The notes under the pieces are model-generated. The model made no database searches and was not told where the DNA came from. It saw only the letters and a program-made list of their open reading frames with translations. The position numbers were made by a program, and so were the translations under genes. Positions 1 to 19,843 of a stretch of 46,562 nucleotides of DNA are shown here, piece after piece (within the stretch, counting starts at the first letter, position 1; each line of letters begins with the position of its first letter). The DNA comes from a virus: positions 1 through 46,562 of IMG/VR virus record IMGVR_UViG_3300006926_001567; one strand, written 5' to 3'.

Positions 1-825
1 GATATCATAACATATTTAATTGAAAATATCGAAAATGTATTTAATACCAGTGCTAATATATCAACAAAAGAAAAAGAAAGGAATTGGCCGTATGCACGTA
101 TATGGCATCCAGAAAATGATAATAGTATAGAGACTGAATCCACAAGTACGTTTTTAGATTTATATAAAATAATGCAAGAAGTGAGTATAAAAGTTTATAA
201 TAGCTTTAATAAATATTATAACGTTCCACCTGATACTGTGCATTTGGGAAAAGATCAATTTGCGGCTATACGATATGAATCAAATAATAGTAAAAATTTA
301 GGACCGTGGGATGGAAACTATAGAATGTATGAACATCGTGATTTGACTGCTTTAGCATTAGTAAATATAATTTTTCCAAAATCTCATTCAGGTAAATTTT
401 CGGAATTACAAGTCTTGACTAAAGATTTTACGTGGACTGATATCCCTTATATACCTGGCGTACTTATATTAATCGCTGGAGAAGTGATACAAAGATGGAC
501 TAATGATGAAGTAATAGCGATGCCGCATCGTGTATGTAATACTATGCCTAATAAAATTCGACATGTTGTTTGTCATTTTTCCAATCCGAAAAATGAAACA
601 GTTATATCTAATCTTACTAAAAATAAATCAATATATAAAGATGTAACTGCGAAAGAATTTTCTATTGATAGATTAGAAGACAATGTTACTTATATTCCAG
701 ACAAAGAAGAAATAAATAATTTCGAAAATGGACAAGCTCTTTATGATCATGAATATTTCCAAGTAGAGTCTAATAAAATGGAAGATTCAAATTTTAAAAT
801 ATATGCAAAAGATGCAACTTTATGA
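1..825 (+). CDS. 2OG-Fe(II) oxygenase, isopenicillin N synthase-like (5' end missing)
   Basis: The frame is open from the first base, so the gene starts before the window; 274 codons are visible. An internal ATG at 172 exists but the upstream codons read as protein, so I do not take it as the start. Counting visible codons, a H112-x-D114 pair and a distal H176 in MPHRV form the expected 2-His-1-carboxylate iron site. Between them lie the family's LQVLTKDFTWTDIP strand and a G-(V/E)-IQRWTNDE segment. The usual 2-oxoglutarate-binding R-x-S is not clear; IRHVVCHF stands in its place. It resembles the C-terminal half of the two oxygenases at 10982 and 11874. Such enzymes hydroxylate, desaturate or cyclise small molecules using Fe(II), O2 and usually 2-oxoglutarate. 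It overlaps the next gene by ATGA, which suggests translational coupling. The family is secure; the substrate is unknown. Confidence 0.8.
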   Translation, partial: DIITYLIENIENVFNTSANISTKEKERNWPYARIWHPENDNSIETESTSTFLDLYKIMQEVSIKVYNSFNKYYNVPPDTVHLGKDQFAAIRYESNNSKNLGPWDGNYRMYEHRDLTALALVNIIFPKSHSGKFSELQVLTKDFTWTDIPYIPGVLILIAGEVIQRWTNDEVIAMPHRVCNTMPNKIRHVVCHFSNPKNETVISNLTKNKSIYKDVTAKEFSIDRLEDNVTYIPDKEEINNFENGQALYDHEYFQVESNKMEDSNFKIYAKDATL

Positions 826-2153
826 CTTTTCAATTAGAAGTTTCTGTTACAGAAAAATGTAATTTGGGTTGCCCTTATTGTTACGTAGCTAATCAGGATA
901 ATTTTATGACTGAAGAGGCGTTTGATGATAGCTGGGATGAATTTAAAACTTTAGTTAAACGATCTAGAGCAGTAAATTCAGAATATTATGTTTCTTATTT
1001 TGGCGGAGAACCATTATTAAATATGGATATTATATCATATTCAGCCGAAAAATATTACAATAGAGATCCAAAATGTTCTGGAATGAGTGTTATATCAAAT
1101 TTGACTTTGATAGATGAGGAAAAATTAAACGAATTAGAACGGCTAGGTGTAGGATTAGCATGGAGTTTTGATGGAACTTCTGCAAATGAATCTAGACCAC
1201 TTGTTAAAAATATGAAAGAAAATGATGGATATGAAAATATTTTAGAAATCTATGAACAAAAGAAGCATTTAATAAGTCGAATTTTTAGTAAGGGATATGG
1301 TGGTAGGTCTTGTAAGGTTATGATATTTCCCGGTAATGTTTCTGGAATGAGTGAAAATTTTAAGTTTTTGGTTGAGTTTGGAGTGCCCGAGCCCGGCTTT
1401 GCTATTGTTAGAGATGATATTTGGAGCGAAGATGATATTCGTTTGTTTAGAAAAGAGTGTAGGCGATTGGCCGATACAAATATAGAGTATTTAGATTCAG
1501 GTAAAATAGTTATGGCCGGTTTTTTTCATCTTGCTATACGTGATATGCTTATAGGTTTAACAAAAGAAAAAAGACCTTTTGGGTGTTTTGCTGGACATCA
1601 TGGGGCAGTTTTAACAACTGAAGGTAAATTTTTTCCATGTGCTAGATGGAGTTCTAAAAAATTATTACCAATGAAAGGTGACACATATAATTTTAATTAT
1701 TATCAAAAGATATTTAATCCAAAAACTTATGATAAATGTAAAGATTGTAGATTATATAAAGTTTGTAATTCTGGTTGTACATATTCTCAAGTTCGAAATA
1801 ATAATGCACCTGTAGATTCTATTTGTGAATTGTTTCATATATATTATGATGAAACATTGCGTATGGCGGAAATATGTAAGGATATGCCCGCCTATCAAAA
1901 ATATATAAAAATGTTATTTTCTGGTCGAACCGAAAAATGGTATACACCAGATAATGATCATATACCAATATTGGAATTAATAGAGGCGGCAAAAGAGCCA
2001 GGTATACCAAGCATTTTCAATGATAATGGTGCCTTGGCGGCAATTTCACCTTCTTTACTTCCATTTGGTAAAGCCGCTGAAGATAATCTTTCCTTTTCTG
2101 CAGGAAAAGGTCATATTGAACCAAAGGGACTTGGAGGTCAACATCCATATTAA
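822..2153 (+). CDS. Radical SAM enzyme with SPASM-type C-terminal cluster domain
   Basis: The 443-residue protein has the radical SAM signature C13-x3-C17-x2-C20 near its N terminus, followed by YFGGEP (the GGE motif that binds SAM) and a WSFDG strand. A second Cys-rich region (C255, a PC near 274, C306, C309, C315, C319 and a later SIC) fits a SPASM/anSME-type domain holding auxiliary iron-sulphur clusters. SPASM enzymes commonly modify peptides (RiPP maturases, sulfatase-activating enzymes). About 75 residues after the SPASM part form an unrecognised tail ending in a Gly/His-rich stretch. The gene overlaps the upstream oxygenase by four bases and lies 14 bases before a gene for a 78-residue protein that could be its substrate or partner. 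Fold and cofactors are confident; peptide modification is inference. Confidence 0.88.
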   Translation: MTFQLEVSVTEKCNLGCPYCYVANQDNFMTEEAFDDSWDEFKTLVKRSRAVNSEYYVSYFGGEPLLNMDIISYSAEKYYNRDPKCSGMSVISNLTLIDEEKLNELERLGVGLAWSFDGTSANESRPLVKNMKENDGYENILEIYEQKKHLISRIFSKGYGGRSCKVMIFPGNVSGMSENFKFLVEFGVPEPGFAIVRDDIWSEDDIRLFRKECRRLADTNIEYLDSGKIVMAGFFHLAIRDMLIGLTKEKRPFGCFAGHHGAVLTTEGKFFPCARWSSKKLLPMKGDTYNFNYYQKIFNPKTYDKCKDCRLYKVCNSGCTYSQVRNNNAPVDSICELFHIYYDETLRMAEICKDMPAYQKYIKMLFSGRTEKWYTPDNDHIPILELIEAAKEPGIPSIFNDNGALAAISPSLLPFGKAAEDNLSFSAGKGHIEPKGLGGQHPY

Positions 2154-2167
2154 ACTAAGGAGACAAA

Positions 2168-2404
2168 ATGCCGTGTGATGAAAAAGATGTAACTCTAAGA
2201 TATGAAGGGGGTGGTGGTTTTGATGTAGATCAGATTGCTAAAGCTATTCAAACAAAGATGACTCCTGACCGAGTAAAAGCAAGAGATGATAATTTACTTA
2301 AAGCACAAACCGAAGAAAATGTAGTTCACCGACACATGTTTAAGTATGAAAACTTAGATTTTCAAAGATTCCTAAAAACAATGGCATACGTGGTAAAACA
2401 ATAA
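2168..2404 (+). CDS. Small 78-residue protein between two radical SAM genes
   Basis: A strong ribosome site (AAGGAG, 2157-2162) precedes the ATG, and the stop overlaps the next gene's start by one base (TAATG), so it is very likely translated. It is charged, with a YEGGGGFD stretch near residues 14-21, then a probably helical middle and a KYENLDFQRFLKTMAYVVKQ end. There is a single Cys (C3). I recognise no domain. Its position between two radical SAM genes makes it a candidate RiPP-type precursor or a peptide-binding accessory protein, but no leader motif, GG cleavage site before a distinct core, or repeat proves it. The Gly run is the obvious place to look for modification. It could equally be a small subunit of either enzyme. 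Confidence 0.75.
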   Translation: MPCDEKDVTLRYEGGGGFDVDQIAKAIQTKMTPDRVKARDDNLLKAQTEENVVHRHMFKYENLDFQRFLKTMAYVVKQ

Positions 2405-3573
2405 TGAATATTCAATATCATCCTAAAAATTTTAGTGAATGTAAGTCTAATCAGAGAACTTCTTCTAATAAGTTAAATTCTACTCGTAGCGATAAAGGGG
2501 TAACTGATATTTTTGCTAGCCAAGAAAAAACAGTATCGAATATTGTCGATGAATGGAAAGGTGGAGCAGGATTATTTAAAGAGTCGGCGGTGAGATCGTA
2601 TGAAGATGATAAGATTAACACAAATAAAATAGTAAATGATTACACGGATGTGTGGCACAATCAAGAAGAGCCGAAACGTCCTCAGGTATCAAATTTACAC
2701 GTTATATATTTTACTAATAAATGCAATCTTAAATGTACTTATTGTTATGAACAATTAGAAAATAAACCTGCTCAAATTCCCACAAAAGACTTTCTGATAA
2801 ATCAAGCTGAAGAAATTATAAAAAGTGAACCAGATGAAAATTTTCAAAGTTTTTTTTCTTTATTTGGAGGCGAACCGTTGACACAATGGGATAATGTCAA
2901 AACATTCATGGAAAAAGTGTTATCTATGAAAAATAATGTTACATTTAATCTGATAACAAATGGTATATTATTAACAAAACCTAAGTTTTTTAAATCTTTT
3001 TTAGAATATTTTGAAACTAGACCTATAACAAAGCAAAAATTTAGTATAGATATTAGTTTTGATGGTATAGGTAATCAGGAAAGAATATATCAAAGTGGGA
3101 AAAAATCAACAATGGATGTAGTTGAAGCATTATCTCTTATGTCTAAAACAGATTTTACTTGGAGAGTACGATATACTATACATAAAGCCAATTTACATAA
3201 ATTTGCAGAAGATATGGTGGGAATTATTAATACATTTGGACCCATGAGAATAATTTCATCTATAGATTCCTCGATGGATGACAATACAGACTTAGAAGAA
3301 AAAAAACATATCCATAAAGCACTAGAAGCGAATATACAAAATTTACGAGATTTATGGAGAAAAGAATCAATACATTCTCCGGTGTGTCACTTATTTTGTG
3401 ATATGTGTAATGGATGCTCAGGATCCCATAAAATGAAAAGATATTGGTCTACTGAAGGACTTGTAAGAGAACAGAAAGGAAGTGAAAATATCGTTCCTTT
3501 CACAGATTTTGATGATCATACGAAACTAGATACTACAGGTAGTATGAATCGACAACCAATTAAAACCGAATGA
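2404..3573 (+). CDS. Second radical SAM enzyme
   Basis: 389 residues. A ~95-residue N-terminal extension precedes the radical SAM core, where C107-x3-C111-x2-C114 binds the 4Fe-4S cluster. LFGGEP, LITNG and DISFDG follow in the order expected for the family. Near the C terminus C328-x3-C332-x2-C335-x2-C338 forms a compact Cys cluster, a likely auxiliary Fe-S site but shorter than a classic SPASM domain. The extension could be a substrate-recognition region; its sequence is polar and not recognised. It is encoded directly after the 78-residue protein and in the same reading block as the first radical SAM gene, so the three probably act together. Function beyond radical SAM chemistry is inferred. 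Confidence 0.87.
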   Translation: MNIQYHPKNFSECKSNQRTSSNKLNSTRSDKGVTDIFASQEKTVSNIVDEWKGGAGLFKESAVRSYEDDKINTNKIVNDYTDVWHNQEEPKRPQVSNLHVIYFTNKCNLKCTYCYEQLENKPAQIPTKDFLINQAEEIIKSEPDENFQSFFSLFGGEPLTQWDNVKTFMEKVLSMKNNVTFNLITNGILLTKPKFFKSFLEYFETRPITKQKFSIDISFDGIGNQERIYQSGKKSTMDVVEALSLMSKTDFTWRVRYTIHKANLHKFAEDMVGIINTFGPMRIISSIDSSMDDNTDLEEKKHIHKALEANIQNLRDLWRKESIHSPVCHLFCDMCNGCSGSHKMKRYWSTEGLVREQKGSENIVPFTDFDDHTKLDTTGSMNRQPIKTE

Positions 3574-3575
3574 CC

Positions 3576-3595
3576 TTCATTTGCTTGCAAATGAA
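3576..3595 (+). other. Inverted repeat between radical SAM gene and next gene
   Basis: TTCATTTG-CTTG-CAAATGAA gives a perfect 8-bp stem with a 4-base loop in the 46-base gap after the radical SAM gene. Only TTTAATT follows, so it is a poor intrinsic terminator. It could be an mRNA stabiliser or processing site. Confidence 0.45.
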
Positions 3596-3619
3596 TTTAA
3601 TTGTAGGGAGAGAAATAGT

Positions 3620-4516
3620 ATGGAAAATAATGAAGTTTTGGATATAGAAGAATTACATAAACCAGTCATTGAACCCCTTGAAGGAGGACATCAGCATGAA
3701 AAACCTTCCGCAAAAGCAGTTCAATTTAATGAAATAGTCGGAGATTTTAATACAAAACTAACAAAACTTTTAGAAGATGAAGAATTAGCATTTTTAGCAT
3801 CTATAATGTTACACCATGTTGATATAGGATTATTGTTTTTACAACGATATGATCTTAAAGAAGGCGGGTGGTCTAATAGGAGACCTGCACAGGGTTCGGG
3901 TGGAAATATGGCCGCAATGCAAGGTCAGGGTTTTGATCCAGATTGTCCAGAATGTAATGTAGATTATCAAACGCAGAATTATGATCCTACAGATACAGGA
4001 CAAGATTTATGTACTTGTAGTAAATCTTCTCAACAAAAATTTTGTGATAATAGTTGTAGGGCAAGTCAAGTTGAAATTAAGCAGGAAATCAATGAATATG
4101 TAGATTTTTTAAAAGATAATGATGTAGATGAAACTGATGCAAACGCCATAGTAGAAAGTTTTGAAAAACAGGATGAAAGTGAAGAAATAGATATTAATGA
4201 TGCTATGAGTATTGTCAATAATTATGTGGATGAACAACTTGAAGGTGTTACAGGTCATATGGGAGCAGGAGCAAAAAAAGGAGGAATATCAGATGAAGAC
4301 CTCTTTCCTGATGGATTTGAAGGAACAGAAGTGTTAAACGAAGGAAACACAGGTAAAGATAAAGAAGTAATGCATTTTAATTCTAGAGAACCTAGTGTAG
4401 GAGCCACTATGGGGTTTCAAGATGGTACTGAACGTGTATTAACCGGAGATGATTTTGATGAAGACGGTAAATTAGTTTGTAAATTAGATACAGCACATCC
4501 TGATGATTCCAAGTAA
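3620..4516 (+). CDS. Unrecognised acidic protein with Cys-rich centre
   Basis: I start at ATG 3620 because AGGGAGAG lies just upstream; a TTG at 3581 in the same frame lies inside a hairpin and has no ribosome site. The product is 298 residues and acidic. Roughly residues 94-155 contain a Gly/Gln-rich stretch and then a Cys cluster: CPEC, CTC and FCDNSC. This could bind zinc or an Fe-S cluster, or be the target of the radical SAM enzymes upstream. Before it lies a probably helical segment (LEDEELAFLASIMLHHVDIGLLFLQRY), here named only by its ends at about residues 52-78. The C-terminal half is Asp/Glu/Gly-rich with no recognised domain. It overlaps the next gene by 14 bases. Function unknown. 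Confidence 0.75.
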   Translation: MENNEVLDIEELHKPVIEPLEGGHQHEKPSAKAVQFNEIVGDFNTKLTKLLEDEELAFLASIMLHHVDIGLLFLQRYDLKEGGWSNRRPAQGSGGNMAAMQGQGFDPDCPECNVDYQTQNYDPTDTGQDLCTCSKSSQQKFCDNSCRASQVEIKQEINEYVDFLKDNDVDETDANAIVESFEKQDESEEIDINDAMSIVNNYVDEQLEGVTGHMGAGAKKGGISDEDLFPDGFEGTEVLNEGNTGKDKEVMHFNSREPSVGATMGFQDGTERVLTGDDFDEDGKLVCKLDTAHPDDSK

Positions 4517-5264
4517 AATTAAAAATTATGATAGAAGTTGGTGTACTAAGTTATGTACAACGACAAAAGAAATTACTCAACTTTGTGAAGAGACTTTTAA
4601 TTCAATAGGCGGAATAGGATATCCCGAGACATATAATAAATTACTTACGGATATTATATTTTTTATTGAAAATAATCGAACTGTACAACTACTACAATTT
4701 AATGATGATGATGTTGACGCCTATAAATATATGTATATATCTATGAAACGTCCTGAATGGTATACCAATGATGATTTACATCTCATAAATAAAATCTTAA
4801 AATTTGATGTATCTTGGTATGCACATTGGTGGGGTGAAAGTGTTAGATTGGCTTGGAACAAATTACAATCCAGTTATAAAATATATCATATGAATGCTCA
4901 TAAAAATATAATTGATAGATCATGTATTATAAACTTAAAGAAAACCTTACTTAGTTTACCCTATAATAAATTTACTTGGTTGATAAACATTGAATCTATA
5001 AATAGACATTTTTATAATCCTAGTGTGAAGAACAACCCATTATTTTCAATACGAAAACATTTATATTTAATTTTATTTGAAAACTTTAAGGCTATACGAG
5101 AATTTACTGAAGAAGAATCTATAGAATTTACAAGTTTCATAGAGGACATAAAATTGAGTCCTGTTGTAGAAACTCAAGGTAATGATTTAGAATATTTGAG
5201 ACAATCTTATAATTTATATCAAAGTCAAAAAACTTATAAAGAACAATATGGGCAGATCAGATAA
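4503..5264 (+). CDS. Unrecognised 253-residue protein, Trp/Tyr-rich
   Basis: The start overlaps the previous gene by 14 bases and the end overlaps the next by 17, in keeping with a translated operon member. The sequence is rich in Trp, Tyr and Asn and looks mostly helical, with no signal peptide or clear membrane segment. A stretch around residues 160-175 (PYNKFTWLINIESINRHF) resembles YTKWTWILKSIEIIYGNREY in the next protein and FKWAYIYDFMHSINKYF at the end of the 14829 gene product. That suggests a shared domain or a common partner. I recognise no known family. The conserved core WYAHWWGESVRLAW is distinctive and would be a good search seed. Confidence 0.72.
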   Translation: MIPSKIKNYDRSWCTKLCTTTKEITQLCEETFNSIGGIGYPETYNKLLTDIIFFIENNRTVQLLQFNDDDVDAYKYMYISMKRPEWYTNDDLHLINKILKFDVSWYAHWWGESVRLAWNKLQSSYKIYHMNAHKNIIDRSCIINLKKTLLSLPYNKFTWLINIESINRHFYNPSVKNNPLFSIRKHLYLILFENFKAIREFTEEESIEFTSFIEDIKLSPVVETQGNDLEYLRQSYNLYQSQKTYKEQYGQIR

Positions 5265-6360
5265 TATAAATAATCCGTTTGAAAAGAGTATTGATGATGA
5301 GTATGATTACCCCCAAGAGGACGCCCCAATAGAGGATTCATATAGCGGTGTATTACAAGCTGTGTTGAAGAATGAATCACAGCCATCGGTTGAAGAAATC
5401 AAACTTTCTTTAGATGATCTCACTTCTAATACTGCTATGGACGATATGTGGGTATCGGGGGGCAAAACAACGTATCTGGATATACATAATCGATGTACGG
5501 GGCTTTTGTCATCTATAGTGGGAAAGTTAAATACTGAAACTCCTGAGAATGATTATCCAACACCACCAGATCATTGGAAATATACTGATGAAGTACGAGA
5601 AGATTTATATAACTATGTTGATTCTAGAATAGATAAGACCAAAATACAAACACCATTAGATCGATTTAATTGTTTATTGAATGTGAGTGATATTAAAAAA
5701 GCGGCAGATCCTGATTGGGAAACGAGACTTATTAATTATTTGGTTGATATAAATTGTTATGAGTATACCGATGAATGTTTTAGAGTTTTACGAGAAATGC
5801 CTTCGAAGACTATGGAAGAATTGGACAAGTGTGTGCGTAAACGGTATCCCTCAGAACTTTCTAACATAGATTTAAGATTTTCATGGACTAGTAGTAAAGA
5901 AAAATCAACCGAATACCATTCAGTAGAAAGCCTCGCTTGTTTTTTAGTAATATTTTATCTTAATCTTTTTATTGGCTATACAGGCACATCATCCGATACA
6001 ACATTGGATAAAACGGAACAATTAACCGAATTTAAAAATGCTTTAAATTCTTTATATACCAAGATACTTGAAGAACTGTCATATACAAAATGGACATGGA
6101 TACTTAAATCGATAGAGATTATATACGGCAATCGAGAATATTTAGATACGGGTCCTCAACCTGAAGCAGTACAGGATGTAGATACGTTTTGGAACAAAAC
6201 ATTAACATTAAATACAGAATGTATTGATAATTTATCTAGTGAAAATGTTTCAGAATTAATTAAAATAGTAGAAAATAGAGGTAATAATTTTATTCCTGCT
6301 TCTTCTATCTATAATAAAATGTTAGATAATTTACAATTTAAATTAGATAATAAGGATTAA
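5248..6360 (+). CDS. Unrecognised 370-residue protein
   Basis: ATG 5248 overlaps the upstream gene by 17 bases. The N-terminal ~50 residues are acidic and Ser/Pro-rich, probably unstructured. The rest looks helical, with a hydrophobic segment SLACFLVIFYLNLFIGYTG at about residues 229-247 that might be a membrane helix or a buried core helix. YTKWTWILKSIEIIYGNREY near residues 278-297 matches a motif in the 4503 product, so the two are probably distant paralogues. Scattered Cys residues (for example NCYEYTDEC) show no metal-binding spacing I can name. Function unknown; position suggests a role in the biosynthetic block. Confidence 0.72.
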   Translation: MGRSDNINNPFEKSIDDEYDYPQEDAPIEDSYSGVLQAVLKNESQPSVEEIKLSLDDLTSNTAMDDMWVSGGKTTYLDIHNRCTGLLSSIVGKLNTETPENDYPTPPDHWKYTDEVREDLYNYVDSRIDKTKIQTPLDRFNCLLNVSDIKKAADPDWETRLINYLVDINCYEYTDECFRVLREMPSKTMEELDKCVRKRYPSELSNIDLRFSWTSSKEKSTEYHSVESLACFLVIFYLNLFIGYTGTSSDTTLDKTEQLTEFKNALNSLYTKILEELSYTKWTWILKSIEIIYGNREYLDTGPQPEAVQDVDTFWNKTLTLNTECIDNLSSENVSELIKIVENRGNNFIPASSIYNKMLDNLQFKLDNKD

Positions 6361-6363
6361 TCA

Positions 6364-6546
6364 ATGTTGGTTGAGATGTTACATGCAGAAATTAAAAAGT
6401 CGGCTGAAGAAAAAAATTATACAAAAGCTATAAAAATAATAGAAGAAAACGAAATAGAATTAAAAACAGAATGGGGAGACACAGACTATAATAATAGGTT
6501 AGATTATTATAAATTACTGTTGAACAACATATATAGAGCGGAATAA
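6364..6546 (+). CDS. Small unrecognised protein (60 residues)
   Basis: It lies three bases after the previous stop and one base before the ACP gene, with AAGGA upstream of its ATG. The product is a charged helical peptide (Glu/Lys-rich first half, then DYNNRLDYYKLLLNNIYRAE). No motif is recognised. Tight packing between neighbours is the main evidence that it is real. Pairing with the ACP as a small partner is possible but unproven. Confidence 0.6.
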   Translation: MLVEMLHAEIKKSAEEKNYTKAIKIIEENEIELKTEWGDTDYNNRLDYYKLLLNNIYRAE

Positions 6547-6547
6547 T

Positions 6548-6802
6548 ATGAACTACACCAGAGAAGAAGTTGAAGAAAAATGTAAGTCTGCGTTTGAAGA
6601 AGCGGCGGCAGGCATTGATTTTCCAGAAATAAAACCAGATAGTAAAATTGCTTTAGATTTAGAAATTGATTCTATTCATATTTTAGAAACAATGATAATT
6701 ATTGAAGACACTTTTAATATAGCTTTAGATGCAGAAGAATTTCAAAAAGCAACAACAATAAGTGATTTATATGATATGGTAGAGCGAAAAGCAAATGCGT
6801 AA
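6548..6802 (+). CDS. acpP-like: Acyl carrier protein
   Basis: 84 residues, the normal ACP size. S42 in the helix-II motif L-E-I-D-S-I-H-I-L-E is the predicted site for 4'-phosphopantetheine (usual motif DSL, here DSI). Acidic residues dominate helix II (ETMIIIEDTFNI), as needed for docking to partner enzymes. An AcpS-type transferase that could charge it is encoded five kilobases or less away at 8404, and a reductase and a condensing enzyme follow directly, so this ACP probably carries the growing or finished acyl chain of a dedicated pathway rather than replacing host AcpP. The stop overlaps the reductase start by eight bases. Confidence 0.92.
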   Translation: MNYTREEVEEKCKSAFEEAAAGIDFPEIKPDSKIALDLEIDSIHILETMIIIEDTFNIALDAEEFQKATTISDLYDMVERKANA

Positions 6803-7400
6803 AATGATTATAACCGGTGTGACTTCTGGTATAGGGAAAGCACTAAGTGAAAAATATGATGGAAGTTATCTCGCAAAATACAAAGACTTAATTGAGGTAG
6901 AAGGTCATAGTAGGCGATATAATAAACATGATATAGAGCATATTAAAGAATGGTTCGATCCCAAAGGCGATATTTTTATAAACAATGCATATAATGACTA
7001 CAAATGGTGGGCTCAAACACAAGCACTTTTATTCGTTTTTCATTTATGGAAAGACGATCCGAACAAACATATAATTTCTGTTAGTTCTATCGCATCTGAA
7101 AAAGATACAGATGATTATCCTATAGGTCATAGTCGTTATACTGCAGGTAAAATATCACTAGATAAAATCAATCTAGAATGTTATGAAAAGACTGCAAAAC
7201 ATAACGGATGTAAAATTTCATTATTAAGACCTGGCTGGGTGGAAACTCCAAGAACAACAAGATTAGCAACTCTCGTAAATCGAGTATATGATCATAAGCT
7301 AGAACCAAATATGCTTTCCCCCGAACAATGTGTAGAATGTATAGACCATATGATTAATTTTAGTGGTCGTATTAGAGAAATGACAATAGAGGCAGAATGA
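6795..7400 (+). CDS. Short-chain dehydrogenase/reductase (FabG-like)
   Basis: 201 residues, short for a classical SDR (about 250). The dinucleotide-binding T7-G-x3-G-I-G14 is at the N terminus, NNAY (63-66) matches the NNAG motif, S97/S98 supply the catalytic Ser, and Y115-x3-K119 the catalytic pair. LRPGWVETPR follows as in other SDRs. The family reduces ketones with NAD(P)H; next to an ACP and a condensing enzyme the natural guess is reduction of a beta-ketoacyl-ACP. The region between the Rossmann start and NNAY is compressed compared with FabG, with no obvious ADP-ribose acidic residue recognised. It overlaps the ACP gene by eight bases and the next by ATGA. Confidence 0.87.
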   Translation: MRKMIITGVTSGIGKALSEKYDGSYLAKYKDLIEVEGHSRRYNKHDIEHIKEWFDPKGDIFINNAYNDYKWWAQTQALLFVFHLWKDDPNKHIISVSSIASEKDTDDYPIGHSRYTAGKISLDKINLECYEKTAKHNGCKISLLRPGWVETPRTTRLATLVNRVYDHKLEPNMLSPEQCVECIDHMINFSGRIREMTIEAE

Positions 7401-8425: not shown

Positions 8426-8778
8426 TAGGAATCGATTTACAAACAATCGAACCTATTCAAAAGATATATGATAAATGGGGTGAGAAATTTGTTAATAAAA
8501 TATTAACAGATATTGAAAAGAAAAACGCACCCAGTCCTATGACTGCTAGATATTTAACTAAATGTTGGTGTGTTAAAGAAGCATATTCTAAAGCAATAGC
8601 TTCACCTTATTTAAGATTAGATGTTAGTTATATGCATTGGAAAAAAAAAGGTGTACGTTTTCCAGTAGTACATGCTCCTGTATCTAAAGAATATAGGAGA
8701 CCGAGACAAGATGTAAGAATATCACTATCTGATACAGATGAATATGTAGTAGCAGTTTGTTATTTATGGAAATCTTAA
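8404..8778 (+). CDS. acpS-like: Holo-ACP synthase (AcpS-type phosphopantetheinyl transferase)
   Basis: 124 residues, the AcpS size. IGIDLQTIEPI (8-18) carries the Mg-binding D11; ARYLTKCWCVKEAYSKAI (48-65) carries E59 and K63, matching the family's RxxxxRWaxKEAxxKA. The C-terminal SLSDTDEYVVAV matches the ISDT-E-A strand. It transfers the phosphopantetheine arm from CoA to the Ser of an ACP, most simply the phage ACP at 6548. Carrying both the carrier and its activator suggests the pathway is made independent of host ACP specificity. The start lies inside the upstream gene, and no clear ribosome site is seen, so coupled translation is likely. Confidence 0.9.
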   Translation: MSARENLIGIDLQTIEPIQKIYDKWGEKFVNKILTDIEKKNAPSPMTARYLTKCWCVKEAYSKAIASPYLRLDVSYMHWKKKGVRFPVVHAPVSKEYRRPRQDVRISLSDTDEYVVAVCYLWKS

Positions 8779-9491
8779 ACAAATATGGTTCTTTAACTAT
8801 TAATATAATTTGTCATTTAGCTATTATACCCGCAATAATTTATGGTGAATGGTGGATGTTATTGTGTAGTTTTATATGGTGGCAATTTATTCATATAACT
8901 GCTGTTACAAGTGGTTATCATAGATATTGGACTCATAATAGTTTTAAGATCGGTAAGTGGTATGAAATTTATAGTCAACTTTTTGGATTATTTGGAAATC
9001 CTGGCCCCGCATTAATATGGATAGGGGTTCATAGGGCTCATCATAAGTATAGTGATACAGAGAAAGATCCACATAGTCCGAAACATAAAGGGTTTTGGAG
9101 GGTATATACAAGTATGTGGTTTCAAGCAGGATTTTGGTATATAGCACCAGAAAGAGTAGACCTTAAAGATTGGTTAAATCTTAGTAAAAATTTTAATTTA
9201 AAATGGTTTTATAATAATTATTTTAAATTACATGCATTAATTGTATTAACATTTTTATTAATAGATCCTTTATTGTTATTATTTGGATATTGTCTTCCTA
9301 TTGTATTTGCAAATCAAGCCTATGGTCTTGTAAATGCTTACTTACATAGACATGGAGAGCCTTCTAATAATTTATTGATAGCATTGATAACAGGTGGAGA
9401 GGGATGGCACCTGAATCATCATAATGATGAGAAGAATTATCGTTTTGGTAAAATTGATCCCGGTGCAAGATTTATATGTCTCATCAAATAG
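8766..9491 (+). CDS. Membrane fatty acid desaturase 1
   Basis: I use ATG 8766; an in-frame TTG at 8757 is possible. The 241-residue protein has the three His boxes of delta-9-type acyl-CoA/lipid desaturases: H52RYWTH57, H89RAHH93 and H215LNHH219 in GGEGWHLNHH. Hydrophobic stretches at about 10-40, 68-90 and 155-190 give the membrane anchors. These di-iron enzymes insert double bonds (or triple bonds, epoxides, hydroxyls) in acyl chains and need electrons from a ferredoxin, rubredoxin or cytochrome b5 that is not encoded nearby. It is the first of three desaturase genes in a row. Length is shorter than most bacterial delta-9 enzymes (about 300). Confidence 0.92.
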   Translation: MEILNKYGSLTINIICHLAIIPAIIYGEWWMLLCSFIWWQFIHITAVTSGYHRYWTHNSFKIGKWYEIYSQLFGLFGNPGPALIWIGVHRAHHKYSDTEKDPHSPKHKGFWRVYTSMWFQAGFWYIAPERVDLKDWLNLSKNFNLKWFYNNYFKLHALIVLTFLLIDPLLLLFGYCLPIVFANQAYGLVNAYLHRHGEPSNNLLIALITGGEGWHLNHHNDEKNYRFGKIDPGARFICLIK

Positions 9492-10222
9492 GTGTAAGAA
9501 TACTTTTGATATTGAATCATATTTTAGCAGTAATAGGAATTATATATTCTTCATTGTCGTGGTATCTATGGATTCCCGTTGGATTTTTATTGTTTGGTAA
9601 ATTTGGAAGTGAAATAGGAAATCATAGATATGTTGCACATAAATCTTTTGAAACGGGCCCAATAAGACATTTTTTGTTATCAACGATGGGTATTTTTAAT
9701 TGTTATGGTTCGCCCATTTCGTGGGTTATAGCACATAGGGCTCATCATTTGTTTTCTGATGAAGCGTTAGACCCACATTCACCTCATATTATTCCTTGGT
9801 GGAGAGTTTGGCTAACTTTGTGGCAAAAAGTAAATTTGCCTATAAAACACTATGCTGATTTATTAAAAAGTCCAATTTATAAAAATGGACACAAATATTA
9901 TTTTTTGATCATAGGTATAACTTTTTTATTATTATCATTAATAGATTGGAGATTACCTGTATTTCTTATTAGTATACCGAGTGTGGGAGTCATACACGGA
10001 GCGGCATTAGTAAATGTCGTATGTCATAAATGGGGTTATCGTAATTTTGAAACTTCAGATAAAAGTACAAATAATTGGTGGGTAAATGATTTAACACTAG
10101 GTAGTGGTTTACATAATAATCATCATCATGATCCCGATAATTGGGATGAAAACGTAACAGGAAAAGAAAGGGATTATTGTGGGAAATTTATTAAAAGATT
10201 CCTCTTGGTGGAGAGAATATAA
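9476..10222 (+). CDS. Membrane fatty acid desaturase 2
   Basis: 248 residues with H50RYVAH55, H87RAHH91 and LHNNHHH near the C terminus. TM-like stretches surround the boxes as in desaturase 1. Identity with desaturase 3 is strong around WGYRNF(E/D)T(S/T)DKSTNN and extends to the DNA level, so these two share a more recent ancestor than either does with desaturase 1. It overlaps the upstream gene by 16 bases and the next by 44. A divergent pair of desaturases acting in series on one chain is a pattern known from polyunsaturated and acetylenic lipid pathways; regiochemistry cannot be told here. Confidence 0.92.
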   Translation: MSHQIGVRILLILNHILAVIGIIYSSLSWYLWIPVGFLLFGKFGSEIGNHRYVAHKSFETGPIRHFLLSTMGIFNCYGSPISWVIAHRAHHLFSDEALDPHSPHIIPWWRVWLTLWQKVNLPIKHYADLLKSPIYKNGHKYYFLIIGITFLLLSLIDWRLPVFLISIPSVGVIHGAALVNVVCHKWGYRNFETSDKSTNNWWVNDLTLGSGLHNNHHHDPDNWDENVTGKERDYCGKFIKRFLLVERI

Positions 10223-10979
10223 TAATTCATGGCAGTCATATTTTACTTTCATGATTTTATTTCATATTGTGTCGGTAATAGGATTGGTTTATAGTCCATT
10301 GCATTGGCTGTGGTTAACTCTTATTGGGGTTATATTGTTTCGGCATATAGGGGGAGAAATTGGTGCTCATAGATATTTTTGTCATACACAATTTGAGGCA
10401 AAGCCTTGGGCTCATAAATTTATGGCTATATGTGGACTATTCATATTTCAAGGAACACATTTTCCGTGGGTAGCATTTCATAGAAGACATCATGAAAAAT
10501 CGGACACGCCAGAGGATCCGCATTCTCCTCACTATTTAAGTCCTGTTGATGTGTGGTTTACTAACTGGAGACAGGAAATATATGAACATAGACTGTATGC
10601 TGATTTAGTGAAAGATCCTTTCTTAAAATTATTGCATAGAAATTATTTAATTATAGTTGTTCCGCCACTTATTTTAACTGCACTAATTGATTGGAGAATA
10701 CCTGTTTTCTTTTTTGCATTACCTAGTATTATAACACTTCATAGTGGAGGATTAACTAATACTATAGGACACATGTGGGGATATCGTAATTTTGATACTA
10801 CAGATAAAAGTACAAACAATACACTTGGACAATGGTTATTTGGTTTTCCTGGAGCAATGCTTCATAATAACCATCATGCTTTTCCAGATGAATATAATTA
10901 CAAAATGTCTGAAAAATGGTATGAAACAGATTTTTTAAATGTCTTTATTATAGAAAACCTTTTAATGAAACGAGTATAA
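10179..10979 (+). CDS. Membrane fatty acid desaturase 3 (GTG start)
   Basis: 266 residues from GTG 10179, chosen because AAGAAAGGGA lies six bases upstream; the next in-frame ATG (10251) has no ribosome site and would trim the first membrane helix. His boxes are H64RYFCH69, HRRHH and LHNNHH. The central HRRHH differs from HRAHH in the other two. Related closely to desaturase 2, including the WGYRNFDTTDKSTNN segment. The last part ends in a basic MKRV tail. Like its neighbours it should sit in the host inner membrane and draw electrons from a host carrier. Confidence 0.9.
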   Translation: MGNLLKDSSWWREYNNSWQSYFTFMILFHIVSVIGLVYSPLHWLWLTLIGVILFRHIGGEIGAHRYFCHTQFEAKPWAHKFMAICGLFIFQGTHFPWVAFHRRHHEKSDTPEDPHSPHYLSPVDVWFTNWRQEIYEHRLYADLVKDPFLKLLHRNYLIIVVPPLILTALIDWRIPVFFFALPSIITLHSGGLTNTIGHMWGYRNFDTTDKSTNNTLGQWLFGFPGAMLHNNHHAFPDEYNYKMSEKWYETDFLNVFIIENLLMKRV

Positions 10980-10981
10980 TT

Positions 10982-11896
10982 ATGTACACACCACTAGTAA
11001 ATCAAAATTCTTCAACGTTTGATGTTGATATAATACGAGCTTTTCGTGATGCTGGACATTGTTTAATAACGAATCCATTTCCTCATCATGTAACTATAAT
11101 GAATCATTTAAGATCACAATTAGATAAGGTGTTTGAAAGTGAAAATTCAGCTAAACAAAGTGAGCCTTGGCAAAATGAAAATTTAGAAAGAATCTTTAAT
11201 CCAAATGCAAAGCCAGTAACAGACGGTTTCGACTTTCCAGAAGACCTCCGTAAATTATGTGATGTTGTATATAAAGCATCTCGACAATTAGGAATGAAAG
11301 TTTTACGGTCTTTTGATTTAGAATTTGGTACAAATTTAATAGAGTGTCATACCCCAAAAATAGGAGCGATAGAAGATGGGGCAAGCATGGTTTTAATTAA
11401 ATATTTGGACATATCAAAGGATTATCAAAGAATGCGGGACCATTGTGATATTGGCACAATAACTATATTACATGTTCTTGATGATACAAAGGATTTAGAA
11501 GTAAGAACTAGTAGAGACAAGGAGGATTGGATAACTGTTCCTTTTGTTCCTAATTCGGTTGCTATAAATGTTGGAGAAACATTACAATCTTGGATAAATG
11601 ATGAAATAACAGCCGTTCCTCATCGAGTAGTCAATAAACACAATAAACGCAGATATTCGATGCCTATTTTTATGGGAGTGGGCACTGGTGGGCCAATGCC
11701 GGAACATGTTCACAAAACCAGAAATTATCTTAGAAGAATAGAACAAGAAACTCAAGGAAAGGGGACCTGTTTAACAAATGATGCCGCTAATGATGTAGTC
11801 AAAGTCAAAGAAACCGGAAGCTATAGAAGCGGGTTACCTGCGGATGCATCCTTAGAAGATCGCCGTGCAGAGCATGAAAAATTATATGGTAATTAG
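10982..11896 (+). CDS. 2OG-Fe(II) oxygenase, isopenicillin N synthase-like (tandem copy A)
   Basis: 304 residues. H154-x-D156 and H214 form the iron site and R224-x-S226 the 2-oxoglutarate clamp; INVGETLQSWINDEITAVPHRVVN is the family's C-terminal jelly-roll strand pair (residues 196-218). The N-terminal third, with FDVDIIRAFRDAGHCLI, fits the DIOX_N part of the family. It is followed by a near copy at 11874, with long runs of identical codons, so a recent tandem duplication is clear. A polar C-terminal extension of about 60 residues has no recognised role. No strong ribosome site is seen two bases after the desaturase stop. Reaction type is likely hydroxylation, desaturation or ring closure; substrate unknown. 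Confidence 0.87.
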   Translation: MYTPLVNQNSSTFDVDIIRAFRDAGHCLITNPFPHHVTIMNHLRSQLDKVFESENSAKQSEPWQNENLERIFNPNAKPVTDGFDFPEDLRKLCDVVYKASRQLGMKVLRSFDLEFGTNLIECHTPKIGAIEDGASMVLIKYLDISKDYQRMRDHCDIGTITILHVLDDTKDLEVRTSRDKEDWITVPFVPNSVAINVGETLQSWINDEITAVPHRVVNKHNKRRYSMPIFMGVGTGGPMPEHVHKTRNYLRRIEQETQGKGTCLTNDAANDVVKVKETGSYRSGLPADASLEDRRAEHEKLYGN

Positions 11897-12839
11897 AAGA
11901 GATTCCCCAACATTTGATTCGGATATAATAAGCTCCTTTAAAGAGACTGGACAATGTTTAATATCAGAGCCATTTCCTCATTATATAACTATAATGAATC
12001 ATATAAGGTCACGATTAGATGGAGTGTTTGAAAATAAGTATTCTATTAAAGCAGATGAGCCTTGGCATAATGAAACCACAGAGAGAATTTTTAATCCTCA
12101 TCTGTTTCCAATGAATCCAAAAGTTTTGGATTCTGTCTTTCCAGAAGACCTTCATAAATTGTGTGGTGTTGTATATAAAGCATCTCGACAATTAGGAATG
12201 ATGGTTCTACGATCTTTTGATTTAGAATTTGGTACGAATTTAATAGAATGTCATACCCCAACGGAAACTGTAAAGGATGGATCTCATATGGTTTTAATTA
12301 AATACTTGGAAAAGCCATCAATAGCAGATAGTAGAATGAAACATCATTGTGATATTGGCACAATAACTATATTACATGTTTTTGATGAAACAGAGGATTT
12401 AGAAATAAGAACTGATAAAGAATCTTCTAATTGGACAACAGCTTCTTTTGCTCCCGCGGTTGTTATAAATGTTGGAGAAACATTACAGGCTTGGTTGAAT
12501 AATAAAATATCAGCAGTTCCTCATCGAGTAGTTAATAAACATAATAAACGCAGATATACGATGCCTATTTTTATGGCTCCGGGAGGTGGGGCGCCTTTAC
12601 CCGAGCATGTTTTAGAACATAGAGATTATCAAAAAAGAATAGAACAAGATGTTCATGAGGATCCAAATGTAGGAGAATTTATTAAGAGTTTGTCAAGTGA
12701 ACAATTACAACAACTTTACGTGGTCATTAGCTCAATTCCACAAGAAGATCCAGACGATATTTACATACCCGTGTCCCTGAATATCGCTAAAAAATATCAC
12801 TATCTTCAAAAATTATTTGAAAAGGAAATGATCAAATGA
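11874..12839 (+). CDS. 2OG-Fe(II) oxygenase, isopenicillin N synthase-like (tandem copy B)
   Basis: I choose ATG 11874 because it gives an N terminus aligned with copy A; GTG 11865 and ATG 11886 are also in frame. 321 residues, with iron ligands H158, D160 and H217. The co-substrate motif is R227-Y-T229, Thr replacing the usual Ser seen in copy A, a mild change. Shared runs such as YKASRQLGM-VLRSFDLEFG and HCDIGTITILHV leave no doubt about duplication. The C-terminal tail differs from copy A: a helical SLSSEQLQQLYVVISS stretch and a basic end. Divergence of tails with conserved cores suggests two related substrates or successive steps. It overlaps the next gene by ATGA. Confidence 0.87.
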   Translation: MKNYMVIRRDSPTFDSDIISSFKETGQCLISEPFPHYITIMNHIRSRLDGVFENKYSIKADEPWHNETTERIFNPHLFPMNPKVLDSVFPEDLHKLCGVVYKASRQLGMMVLRSFDLEFGTNLIECHTPTETVKDGSHMVLIKYLEKPSIADSRMKHHCDIGTITILHVFDETEDLEIRTDKESSNWTTASFAPAVVINVGETLQAWLNNKISAVPHRVVNKHNKRRYTMPIFMAPGGGAPLPEHVLEHRDYQKRIEQDVHEDPNVGEFIKSLSSEQLQQLYVVISSIPQEDPDDIYIPVSLNIAKKYHYLQKLFEKEMIK

Positions 12840-13960
12840 AAACTAGTAAAATACCCGGACTCGGTGATTATGGCCGATTTATAGATGATGTATCATTAGC
12901 AGAAATGTCTGATAATGATTGGATAGAATTGGGGAAAGAACATCTTACTGATTTAGTAACAATCATTAGAAATGTTGATATTCATCCCAATGAATTTGAA
13001 CGAAAAATGCTTCTTTGGGGTGATCCTTTTATTTTAGATGGTTATAGAATTAGAAAAAAATATAAAGAGAAATTAGGAATAAGTAATTTCTACAGTTTAT
13101 TTAAGCGTAATCTCATAGAAGATGTAGATCGAAAACATACAGAAGATTTAGCTTGGATGGGTGCTGGAGGAGATGAATTTATAGGTGAAAAGATTCCTTG
13201 GAAATCTCAATTACACCGTATATCTGGTATAAAAGAAAATGGAAAAGCTATAGGGATGTTTGATAAAGGAGAATTGCTTTGGCACTCTAATGAGCCGGGA
13301 TCTATTGTATTTAATCCAGGAATTGCTTTAATGGGTGTTAAAGGAATGGTTGGTACTTCTACTGGATTTGTTACTACCGCAACTTGGTATGATAAACAGA
13401 CCGATTCATATAAACGAGAGTTGGATGATATGACTATCAAGTTTGTGTGGGGCGGGTATGGAGAGGGGAAGTGGTGTAAAGATCACGATGATATATTTCA
13501 TTGGAATCAAGTATTTGATCCTATTGAACTACCTTTAGTCATCACAAGTCCCGGTGGTGTTAAAGGATTGCATTATGCCCCTTATGCAGTAGAAAAGACA
13601 GAGTTTACCAAACAATTAGATAAAGAACTTTTCATTGAAGAAAATATATATCACCATAAATATCAGCAAAATAATGATATATGTATTTTTGATAATTCTA
13701 TAACCTTACATAATAGAATAGGTCCTGTAGATGAACGAGTAGGATATCGTACACCATGTAATTATTGTCATTTAATTCCTGAAGGATATAACTATTATTC
13801 TCAAGAACCTTATAAAACACAATTTACAGAAACACGTAAAGATATACAAAATACTCTTAATTTACAATCCCGTGTGGAAGATAATATGGTTTATGAAAAA
13901 TTTATAAAGCCTATGATACCTGAAAGAGAATGGAAGAACAACGATTTAGTGAGGAAATAG
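12836..13960 (+). CDS. TauD/TfdA-like dioxygenase with altered iron-binding motif
   Basis: 374 residues. LLWHSNEPGS at 147-156 is where the family has WH-x-D; here H150 is followed by S151 and N152, with E153 next. The context after it (P-G-ALMG...TGFVTTATWYD) and the distal ICIFDNSITLH292NR with R305 in GYRTP are normal for the family. The carboxylate ligand at H+2 is therefore Asn unless E153 takes over. In known Fe/2OG halogenases this position is Ala or Gly, leaving room for halide, so unusual chemistry or a loss of activity are both possible. It overlaps the upstream gene by ATGA and the Rieske gene by 31 bases. Family assignment is good, activity is uncertain. Confidence 0.78.
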   Translation: MKTSKIPGLGDYGRFIDDVSLAEMSDNDWIELGKEHLTDLVTIIRNVDIHPNEFERKMLLWGDPFILDGYRIRKKYKEKLGISNFYSLFKRNLIEDVDRKHTEDLAWMGAGGDEFIGEKIPWKSQLHRISGIKENGKAIGMFDKGELLWHSNEPGSIVFNPGIALMGVKGMVGTSTGFVTTATWYDKQTDSYKRELDDMTIKFVWGGYGEGKWCKDHDDIFHWNQVFDPIELPLVITSPGGVKGLHYAPYAVEKTEFTKQLDKELFIEENIYHHKYQQNNDICIFDNSITLHNRIGPVDERVGYRTPCNYCHLIPEGYNYYSQEPYKTQFTETRKDIQNTLNLQSRVEDNMVYEKFIKPMIPEREWKNNDLVRK

Positions 13961-14841
13961 AAAAAATATTCTTAAAAGGAATGTTTGTTGATTCTGGATA
14001 TCGATTTTCGCAAAAGAATGATTATCATAGTTTTCTTGTCGGAAAATATCCTATTGTTGTAAGAGATGATGCGGTTTATGATAATGTTTGTGATCACAGA
14101 CTTGCTTTAACACACCCCCTTGGATATGGTAATCAAAAATTTATATGTGGTTATCATGGAATAGATCAATCACACGCAAAACAATATCCTCATTACAGAT
14201 ATAAAAATTTATTGTTTATGGGTGAACGTGATCCTTTAGTAATTTCTTTGTTAGATAAATATAATTATAAAGCAGATAATCATTTTTTACATTATGAATT
14301 AACATTTAAAGCAAATTGGAAATTATTTGTAGAAAATGTTATTGATATTCTTCATGTGCCTTATGTTCATGCGGCTTCTAAAAACCTTCTATCACCTTTC
14401 CTGTCCTTAGATCAAAGTCTTACTCCAGAACACATAAGATATGGTAAACATTCTGTAGAAAGAATAACTAAAGAACCCTCTAAACGATATAAAAAATATA
14501 TTGACGAATGGAAATGGGAAAACATTTATATTTTTCCTAATTTGTTTATATCTAATGTTTCGAATGTTGTAACATTTATTGCTTATTTTATTCCTGAAAA
14601 ATATAATGAAGTAACTGTAATATATGAAGGATTTTTTAATAAAGAGGGCATGGATAAACGAATAACAGATGTTATAAAAAAGAGTGCAGAAAACTTTGTG
14701 CCAACTATTTTATTAGAAGATAAACCGTTCATAGAAGGTTGTTGGCAAGGAATATTGTCTGGACAAACTAAATATTCATTAGTAAAGGGGAAAGAAATAC
14801 GGCAAAGATGGTTTTTGGAGAATTTTAAATGCCTCAAGTAG
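13930..14841 (+). CDS. Rieske-type non-haem iron oxygenase
   Basis: 303 residues. C54-x-H56 ... C73-x2-H76 is the Rieske 2Fe-2S site, and N129-WKLFVEN...D139..H142....H147 is the catalytic mononuclear iron motif (D bridging to the Rieske centre, two His ligands). Layout matches the alpha-subunit of vanillate demethylase / choline or chlorophyllide-type oxygenases, though shorter than most (about 350). No reductase or ferredoxin gene is adjacent, so host electron carriers are needed. These enzymes hydroxylate, demethylate or desaturate. It is the last recognised enzyme of the block, following the TauD-like gene with a 31-base overlap. Confidence 0.87.
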   Translation: MEEQRFSEEIEKIFLKGMFVDSGYRFSQKNDYHSFLVGKYPIVVRDDAVYDNVCDHRLALTHPLGYGNQKFICGYHGIDQSHAKQYPHYRYKNLLFMGERDPLVISLLDKYNYKADNHFLHYELTFKANWKLFVENVIDILHVPYVHAASKNLLSPFLSLDQSLTPEHIRYGKHSVERITKEPSKRYKKYIDEWKWENIYIFPNLFISNVSNVVTFIAYFIPEKYNEVTVIYEGFFNKEGMDKRITDVIKKSAENFVPTILLEDKPFIEGCWQGILSGQTKYSLVKGKEIRQRWFLENFKCLK

Positions 14842-15338
14842 GACAGGAGTTTGCGAGTATTGATATAACTCCTTTATGGAATAATTTAAATATGGATGAT
14901 GAGTTAGATGATGATACTCTTCTTATCGAACTACATTGTTTGATTATTTCCACTTCTAAGTTTAGATTTACAAGAGAAACTAAAATAGACGAATCCCAAT
15001 ATGTGGATGATACAGTAGAAGAGGGTCGAAAATATATCTATAAGCAATTTCATCCTGATCCTCGTGATTCTAAGTGGATTCATCCGAACGAAATAAGATT
15101 ATGTGCAATAATTGAAGGATATAAGAAGTTAGCACAAAAATATGGTCAGAAATATTTTGATGATTTTCTTAGAAATTTATATACATCATATCCCACTCCT
15201 GATCCGAATACTACAGTAATAGAACATTTAAATAAATTAAAAGAAGGTAGACCTCAATTTCATTTTAAGTGGGCTTATATATACGATTTTATGCATAGTA
15301 TAAATAAATATTTTGAAATAAAGGGAGAAATATTGTGA
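14829..15338 (+). CDS. Unrecognised 169-residue protein
   Basis: ATG 14829 has GGAG ahead of it and overlaps the Rieske gene by 13 bases. The product is soluble-looking and acidic in its first third. Its C-terminal FKWAYIYDFMHSINKYF recalls short segments in the 4503 and 5248 products, hinting at a common partner or domain. RKYIYKQFHPDPRDSKW and EIRLCAIIEGYKKLAQKYG are the other distinctive parts. No catalytic motif seen. Confidence 0.65.
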   Translation: MPQVGQEFASIDITPLWNNLNMDDELDDDTLLIELHCLIISTSKFRFTRETKIDESQYVDDTVEEGRKYIYKQFHPDPRDSKWIHPNEIRLCAIIEGYKKLAQKYGQKYFDDFLRNLYTSYPTPDPNTTVIEHLNKLKEGRPQFHFKWAYIYDFMHSINKYFEIKGEIL

Positions 15339-15916
15339 TCCAAGAAGAAAGAAGAAAAATATTTAAAAAGGCTTGGGTAAATTCTATTAAAAAGGACTTA
15401 TATCCTAAATATATTAATGGATCTAATGTGGCATTTAATTATTTTTATACTGAATTATCTCGATTATTATATCCGGAAAATAATATAAATGATGAATTAA
15501 CATTTGATGAATATGAAAGGTCTGGTTCCGTAAAGATACGGGCGATGAAAAATGATATGGAGGCTTTAGGTTCACCAATAATTCCTTTTCAGAATCAAAC
15601 TTTGGAAAATGTTATCAAAGGTGATCTAATTGTATTAATCATTGAAAATGAAATACTATTAAGAAAATTGGGTAGTAGAATTGTTAATTTTATTTATTTA
15701 GGTGACAATTTATTAATGGATGCATGTATGGGAAGTGTGATAAATTGGTTAGACTGGAAAGAAAACCCCGAATGGATGCCACGTTTGTTGTTTCATATTC
15801 ATGTTACAGCAGGTACAGAAAATGATATTAAGTATATGCATAAGGGAGATAAGTGGTTTCGCCCTTATGATAAAACAGACGAAGTAATTTGGAAAGATTT
15901 TTGGAGAACTGTATGA
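15335..15916 (+). CDS. Unrecognised 193-residue protein (GTG start)
   Basis: GTG 15335 is preceded by AAGGGAGA and overlaps the previous stop by four bases (GTGA). The protein looks alpha/beta with a hydrophobic middle (IKGDLIVLIIENEILLRKLG) and a Trp-rich C-terminal third (INWLDWKENPEWMPRL). HIHVTAG has His residues that could bind metal, but nothing matches a known family. It overlaps the next gene by ATGA, so it is probably translated with its neighbours. Confidence 0.65.
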   Translation: MIQEERRKIFKKAWVNSIKKDLYPKYINGSNVAFNYFYTELSRLLYPENNINDELTFDEYERSGSVKIRAMKNDMEALGSPIIPFQNQTLENVIKGDLIVLIIENEILLRKLGSRIVNFIYLGDNLLMDACMGSVINWLDWKENPEWMPRLLFHIHVTAGTENDIKYMHKGDKWFRPYDKTDEVIWKDFWRTV

Positions 15917-16923: not shown

Positions 16924-16926
16924 TTA

Positions 16927-17175: not shown

Positions 17176-17183
17176 GGTTATGA

Positions 17184-17896: not shown

Positions 17897-17899
17897 GTT

Positions 17900-18544: not shown

Positions 18545-18547
18545 TTG

Positions 18548-18555
18548 TATAAATA
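18548..18555 (+). promoter_or_regulatory. T4-type late promoter before gp22
   Basis: TATAAATA in the 59-base gap after gp21. A start near 18561 would give a leader of about 43 bases carrying AAGGAG before gp22. It would drive gp22 and, with no terminator between, gp23, up to the terminator at 21211. Confidence 0.75.
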
Positions 18556-19824: not shown

Positions 19825-19843
19825 CAATTAAGGAGATTTACAC

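Follow-up and report, generated by a model that had tools for sequence, protein, structure and literature searches.

A block of 22 plus-strand genes in the virus record IMGVR_UViG_3300006926_001567 (IMG/VR; the 46,562 bases analysed are called the window) comprises at least two systems, a predicted acyl-carrier pathway at positions 6548 to 14841 (module B) and a radical SAM (rSAM) module (module A). Both modules are unusual, and related genomes show them to be genuine, under selection and common to several phages, something not expected of a lytic virus. Judged by its genes, module B is a coherent acyl-carrier pathway, and it probably operates during infection to give an oxidised polyunsaturated acyl or polyketide compound. 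A first-pass annotation of this DNA had described a single cluster of about 22 genes making a small molecule or modified lipid in infection. The single cluster was not upheld, because the rSAM enzymes belong to a separate, widespread Cys-repeat module that mostly occurs without the acyl carrier protein (ACP) pathway; a small molecule or modified lipid is still the likeliest reading.

Gene block and junction with the head genes

The 22 open reading frames (ORFs) fill positions 1 to 16284, each overlapping the next or lying at most 14 bases from it, and the first sizeable gap, of 60 bases (16285-16344), precedes the head genes, among which gp21, gp22 and gp23 are located at 17900-21184. The unbroken, overlapping block ahead of the head genes was thus described correctly at the outset, and its limits were corrected: the end is at 16284, not 15916, and the first gene is incomplete at the window edge. 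The two ends of this region are as follows.

1..825, + strand, iso1, 5' end truncated by the window edge, module membership uncertain
16345..21184, + strand, head gene region (h192, h82, h102, h135, gp21, gp22, gp23) with matches to Peptidase_S77, phrog_237 and phrog_138, an anchor outside the pathway

The DNA of gp22-gp23 is approximately 73% identical, over the aligned parts only, to that of the cultured pelagiphages HTVC008M and Mosig, which places the window virus among T4-like phages near the pelagiphages. A search of IMG/VR with the type III polyketide synthase (PKS) of the block returned five contigs, and a search with its TauD-like protein a sixth, and in each of the six, parts of the block are physically linked to gp23. 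Three lineages were distinguished: the window with the near-identical L005 and L034, L001-L003 (92% PKS identity, probably one population), and L004 (72%). The contigs of L002 and L004 are referred to as G002 and G004. Both run from terminase gp17 through sheath gp18, tube gp19 and portal gp20 to the block, and then to gp21, gp22 and gp23, where gp18 and gp19 are named from order and resemblance only. With gp21-gp23 in the window and gp17, gp20, gp21, gp22 and gp23 in T4 order in G002 and G004, the gene content is that expected of a T4-like marine myovirus. Between gp20 and gp21, G002 has about 24 kb and G004 33 kb, compared with 1.2-1.5 kb in HTVC008M and Mosig; the block is an insertion of 24-33 kb in the T4 core, placed at a single site after portal gp20 and before gp21.

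As the records are metagenomic contigs, a bacterial biosynthetic cluster could have been misjoined to a phage contig near 16.3 kb, where an assembly join would have refuted the first-pass annotation. Such an artefact is very improbable, because seven assemblies from the three lineages span the join to gp21-gp23; the block of G004 lies inside a 77 kb contig flanked by gp17-gp20 and gp21-gp23, and G+C is even across the join. The block is therefore considered truly phage-borne.

Genes of the predicted acyl-carrier pathway

Module B encodes a carrier, a reductase, a synthase, an activator and a series of oxidising enzymes. Nearly all of the enzyme family assignments made at first pass were backed by Pfam.

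6548..6802, + strand, ACP, PP-binding domain (Pfam PF00550, E=6.3e-8), DS attachment motif
6795..7400, + strand, short-chain dehydrogenase/reductase (SDR), adh_short slightly under the Pfam cut-off
7397..8425, + strand, type III PKS, Chal_sti_synt_N/C (Pfam PF00195/PF02797)
8404..8778, + strand, AcpS (phosphopantetheinyl transferase), ACPS (Pfam PF01648, E=2.9e-11)
8757..9491, + strand, des1, membrane fatty acid desaturase, FA_desaturase (PF00487), His boxes intact
9476..10222, + strand, des2, membrane fatty acid desaturase, FA_desaturase (PF00487), His boxes intact
10179..10979, + strand, des3, membrane fatty acid desaturase, 42% identical to des2, His boxes intact
10982..11896, + strand, iso2, 2-oxoglutarate (2OG)-Fe(II) oxygenase, 2OG-FeII_Oxy (PF03171, E=5.7e-16), HxD, H and RxS in place
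11865..12839, + strand, iso3, 2OG-Fe(II) oxygenase, paralogue of iso2 (63% identical), PF03171, E=2.8e-12
12836..13960, + strand, TauD-like oxygenase, Pfam PF02668 and phrog_24590, WHSN at the metal site
13930..14841, + strand, Rieske non-haem oxygenase, Ring_hydroxyl_A (PF00848, E=3.8e-17), weak Rieske match

An ACP with its phosphopantetheine serine and an AcpS, both above the Pfam cut-off, are encoded in one operon in all three lineages. The ACP is 93% identical to its counterpart in G002 (ratio of non-synonymous to synonymous divergence, dN/dS, 0.09), and the SDR retains the TGxxxGIG, NNA and Y-x3-K motifs. The SDR protein is also 99.5% identical to that of G002 despite silent divergence of the gene (dS 0.23, dN/dS 0.01), a far tighter constraint than that on its neighbours.

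The synthase had been called type III PKS or KAS III-like. Its domains and catalytic motifs are those of a type III PKS, and the KAS III identity was rejected: the best solved relative is Pks11 of Mycobacterium tuberculosis (Mtb; 4jao; E=5.5e-33), and C137, H270 and N303 align with the Pks11 catalytic residues and are invariant across the three lineages. The chalcone/stilbene synthase N and C domains score 38.6 and 33.6 bits (cut-off 27), HPGG and GNMS-type motifs are present, and dN/dS is 0.15-0.21. The Cys-His-Asn residues, HPGG, GNMS, length and full-length similarity are held in common with known type III PKSs (Mtb Pks11, DpgA, CylI), whereas the phage enzyme has only about 340 aa, falls far below the NCBIfam DpgA cut-off and is encoded beside ACP and AcpS. 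Among annotated phage records, a related synthase occurs only in that of Streptomyces phage ZL12 (GQ919031), which is not a T4-like marine phage and whose enzyme shares 24.5% identity over 69% with the window PKS; no type III PKS relative was found in Mosig or HTVC008M. A scan of cellular genomes for the origin of the PKS, which reaches close relatives only, gave no more than a 20% relative, in Cyclobacterium.

The desaturase profile matches stearoyl-CoA desaturase 4ymk (E=1.2e-25), and des3 gave no Pfam match below 0.01. The PKS triad, all desaturase His boxes and the iso2 and iso3 ligands are intact, as are those of the Rieske protein, with CxH...CxxH and N-x2-D-x2-H-x4-H. The truncated iso1 also belongs to the IPNS-like 2OG-FeII_Oxy family (Pfam PF03171, E=5.9e-8) and carries HRD...H ligands. 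In the phage TauD-like family (phrog_24590; the window, L009:1090-2148, L039:9932-11071 and P-HM2), WHSN replaces the WHxD of TauD.

Conservation and selection

ACP, SDR, type III PKS and AcpS occur together and in the same order in 3/3 lineages, with desaturases, TauD and at least one IPNS-like oxygenase. The tailoring genes vary by lineage: the Rieske gene is present in two, TauD is relocated in G004, and there are 3 to 7 tandem desaturases per lineage, with seven in G004. Nei-Gojobori dN/dS is 0.01-0.36 for module B genes and 0.06-0.15 for gp21-gp23, the values being rough in the more distant comparisons, where dS exceeds 0.9. The phage-borne set of carrier, activator, synthase and tailoring enzymes noted at first pass is therefore sustained, being joined to head genes in seven assemblies and under purifying selection. 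Module B is nearer to G002 and the head genes (gp23) are nearer to G004, so the cassette appears from these alignments to have been exchanged against the head genes by recombination.

Individual metabolic genes that enhance host pathways are known from phages, and the block might be a loose collection of independent auxiliary genes, brought together by chance insertion at a hot spot and forming no single pathway. The finding of 2OG, TauD-like and desaturase genes singly in other phages fits this, as does the variation of the tailoring genes among lineages with the shifting place of TauD, but an ACP and an AcpS only make sense alongside a synthase, purifying selection has maintained ACP-SDR-PKS-AcpS in each of the three lineages, and the pairing of ACP and desaturase genes recurs in unrelated phages (see below). 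A loose collection is thus unlikely, and a single acyl-carrier pathway is preferred. The auxiliary genes of pelagiphages and cyanophages (the desaturase/TauD/2OG block of Mosig; TauD of P-HM2) come from the same oxygenase and desaturase families, and differ in having no ACP, AcpS or PKS annotated there.

ACP and desaturase genes in other phages

A search with a desaturase alignment found relatives in 139 viral stretches, from which 79 loci were fetched. Of the 74 loci outside the group of the window, many encode multiple desaturases, with profile counts of up to 11. Among 30 records tested, 14 contained an ACP and 10 a ketosynthase. The ACP gene adjoins a desaturase gene in 11 of 15 ACP lineages, each counted once, against 2.5 expected by random placement, and none of 200,000 simulated draws (0/200,000) reached 11; the placement model is simple and the loci were preselected for a desaturase, though preselection alone does not create adjacency. 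Because the ACP-desaturase gene pair recurs, this comparison suggests that desaturation occurs on an ACP-bound chain, as in the jamABC system. Phage hallmarks were confirmed for gp23 in G021, G035 and G036 and for terminase in G004, G018, G035, G036 and G038.

In six loci (L079, L080, L088, L057, L075, L091), a span of about 20 kb contains 6 to 11 desaturase genes, in some cases together with ACP, AcpS and a FabF-like ketosynthase. The array of L079 is accompanied by ACP, AcpS, a FabF-like ketosynthase, rubrerythrin and rubredoxin, and L057 encodes a ketosynthase and a Rieske-domain protein.

Polyyne and alkyne clusters of the jamABC type encode an ACP and several desaturases together, with the fatty acyl-AMP ligase JamA, a thioesterase and a rubredoxin (PMC8406139). 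The window likewise has an ACP and three desaturases (des1-des3), but also a type III PKS, an SDR, and 2OG and Rieske oxygenases, on a T4-like phage. Membership of this cluster class was rejected because no acyl-AMP ligase was found: PF00501 was unmatched in the window and in 24 related or comparable records, while 12/14 control genomes match. That the phage carries a polyyne or alkyne cluster of this kind, making an antimicrobial against competing bacteria, is consistent with an ACP beside at least three desaturases and with the rubredoxin of L079; given the missing ligase, the lack of a Pfam match to thioesterase or rubredoxin in the block, and a type III PKS that lies outside the definition, it is improbable.

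Radical SAM module

The genes of module A in the window are listed first, followed by examples and associated proteins from other records.

822..2153, + strand, rSAM1, radical SAM enzyme, putatively of SPASM type, Pfam PF04055, best NCBIfam match the PapB ranthipeptide maturase, below cut-off
2168..2404, + strand, s78, small conserved partner flanked by rSAM1 and rSAM2, profile match to equivalents in other phages (E=8.7e-5)
2404..3573, + strand, rSAM2, radical SAM enzyme, Pfam PF04055 (E=4e-13), conserved position
L144:8904-13473, L145:4308-9917 and L138:8890-15257, examples of module A among L124-L155
L019:8729-12625, and G004 reverse complement 20767-25806 and 26132-30862, collagen-like proteins of giant size (in G002 with a match to Pfam Collagen)
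CP220 NC_027997 160932-162533, and L161:782-2386, 534-aa heptad protein, with 'repetitive region' notes in CP220

In the window iso1 directly precedes rSAM1, and the window starts inside the stretch that corresponds to module A of G002 and G004. After the portal gene, these two contigs encode giant collagen-like proteins, some further genes, and a protein of 197-203 aa that ends in about twelve CNCNFCP heptads, followed by rSAM0, rSAM1, an s78-like protein and rSAM2. The giant collagen-like proteins (1298-1679 aa, with long GSA repeats) directly follow the portal gene. Relatives of rSAM1 were found at 32 loci in IMG/VR, representing 17 lineages at a 93% similarity threshold. The order rSAM0-rSAM1-s78-rSAM2 holds across them, except in L147 (rearranged) and L150 (contig ends early), and 30 of the 32 include a gene for a protein in which C(N/D)C(N/D) motifs recur, frequently as CTCNCNY; the window, truncated on its left side, shows none. 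The conserved module of three radical SAM genes, a small partner and a CTCNCNY/CNCNFCP heptad protein often lies just after large fibre-like genes. Two of the Cys-repeat proteins continue into SD(I/E)RLK(K/T)NI, which we take to resemble the S74 tail-fibre chaperone domain, and the Cys-heptad protein is possibly a structural protein matured by radical SAM enzymes.

Fifteen of the 17 rSAM lineages are without ACP or desaturase within the fetched flanks, and only the two window-related lineages have them. The rSAM genes therefore form a module of their own, and their assignment to the PKS pathway was rejected as the principal reading. A single integrated system of 22 genes, in which the rSAM-modified Cys-repeat protein carries the acyl product of module B or cooperates with it (a lipidated peptide or a decorated fibre), would account for the presence of both modules in one plus-strand run between gp20 and gp21 in three lineages, and for the genes h169-h193-h131, which lie beyond module B in the window and whose homologues in G004 and L040 adjoin the Cys-repeat gene. 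Fatty-acylated ribosomally synthesised and post-translationally modified peptides also exist. Such a system is rather doubtful, considering the 15/17 lineages above, the desaturase-ACP sets in phages with no rSAM triad nearby, and the lack of a recognised acyltransferase in the block; two separate modules are preferred.

PapB-type ranthipeptide maturases (NF047865) were the best NCBIfam match for all five rSAM proteins tested, at 63-136 bits against a cut-off of 340, and SPASM was matched weakly by Pfam in rSAM0. As in ranthipeptide systems, the candidate substrates are Cys-rich and encoded nearby, but they differ in being proteins of 140-530 aa that contain heptad repeats and, in some cases, have a fibre-like C-terminus. 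The leader of the marine Cys-repeat protein gave no match among annotated phages. In cultured Campylobacter phages, the same Cys heptads occur in a protein of 534 aa, annotated as hypothetical in most records. These phages also hold a 35% relative of rSAM1, far from the heptad gene in the genome, and many radical SAM genes, 11 of them in CP220 (PMC2853527).

Proposed pathway

Gene content, intact catalytic residues, selection, co-inheritance and head-gene linkage were observed; the following course of reactions, with its product, timing and role, is inferred from the known chemistry of the enzyme families. The phage AcpS would convert the phage ACP to its holo form using host CoA, and the type III PKS would extend a host acyl-CoA or acyl-ACP with malonyl units. 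The SDR would reduce a keto group, several membrane desaturases would create multiple double or triple bonds, probably while the chain is bound to ACP, and the 2OG and Rieske oxygenases would introduce oxygen. The oxidised polyunsaturated acyl or polyketide product would most likely be membrane-active or membrane-resident; a lipid-like product of this kind is the likeliest, and poorly discriminated by the present evidence. It may change the membrane of the infected cell, act as a diffusible compound or form a component of the virion. Separately, module A (rSAM1, s78 and rSAM2) would modify a Cys-repeat protein expected upstream, beyond the left edge of the window.

Several points weigh against this pathway. 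The block has no recognisable gene for a thioesterase, an acyl-AMP ligase, an acyltransferase or an exporter, a gap at the loading and release steps, and because the ligase was not found, loading would have to use host acyl-CoA, host acyl-ACP or the synthase itself. The ACP gene of the window adjoins the SDR gene and not a desaturase gene, and the TauD-like protein is without the usual carboxylate iron ligand in every family member aligned. Comparison records other than those with confirmed hallmarks, including L079 and L088, rest on the classification given by IMG/VR. A search of the open-access literature yielded no previous description of desaturase-ACP arrays in phages or of a link between rSAM genes and the Cys-repeat protein, which, with this scope, is weak evidence of novelty.

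Other features

The remaining ORFs of the block and the gap that follows it are given below.

3581..6546, + strand, h311, h253, h370 and s60, lying between the modules and assigned to neither, no Pfam or PHROG match
14829..16284, + strand, h169, h193 and h131, a trio whose homologues adjoin Cys-repeat/rSAM genes in G004 and L040
16303..16310, + strand, TATAAATA, motif weakly resembling a T4-type late promoter, within the 60-base gap

Distant relatives of h311 are found at the equivalent place in G002 and G004, and homology between h311 and the small protein encoded behind rSAM2 in other phages was not confirmed. The predicted fold of h193 was a low-confidence model (pLDDT 64) with no significant match. 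The motif TATAAATA occurs across the whole window no more often than by chance, and sigma-70 and terminator scans gave nothing beyond chance level. A trypsin-like protease with a PDZ match (DegP-like), unusual for a phage, is encoded at window positions 41275-42363. In HTVC008M (L024:3199-5158), a 2OG oxygenase gene and a gene annotated as tryptophan halogenase adjoin the large terminase gene.

Implications

It is tentatively proposed that lytic phages may have a class of specialised metabolism of their own, with ACP-tethered multiple desaturation, a type III PKS or FabF-like ketosynthase, and polyunsaturated products, and that, separately, many phages may cross-link a Cys heptad-repeat structural protein by an rSAM trio, as part of the virion. 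If so, viruses of aquatic bacteria would make their own specialised molecules by a carrier-based pathway that is selected and exchanged between lytic lineages, and the ACP-desaturase gene pair would be a simple search key for such pathways. The rSAM/Cys-repeat module, which reaches far beyond the window and is present also in cultured Campylobacter phages, is a directly testable system.

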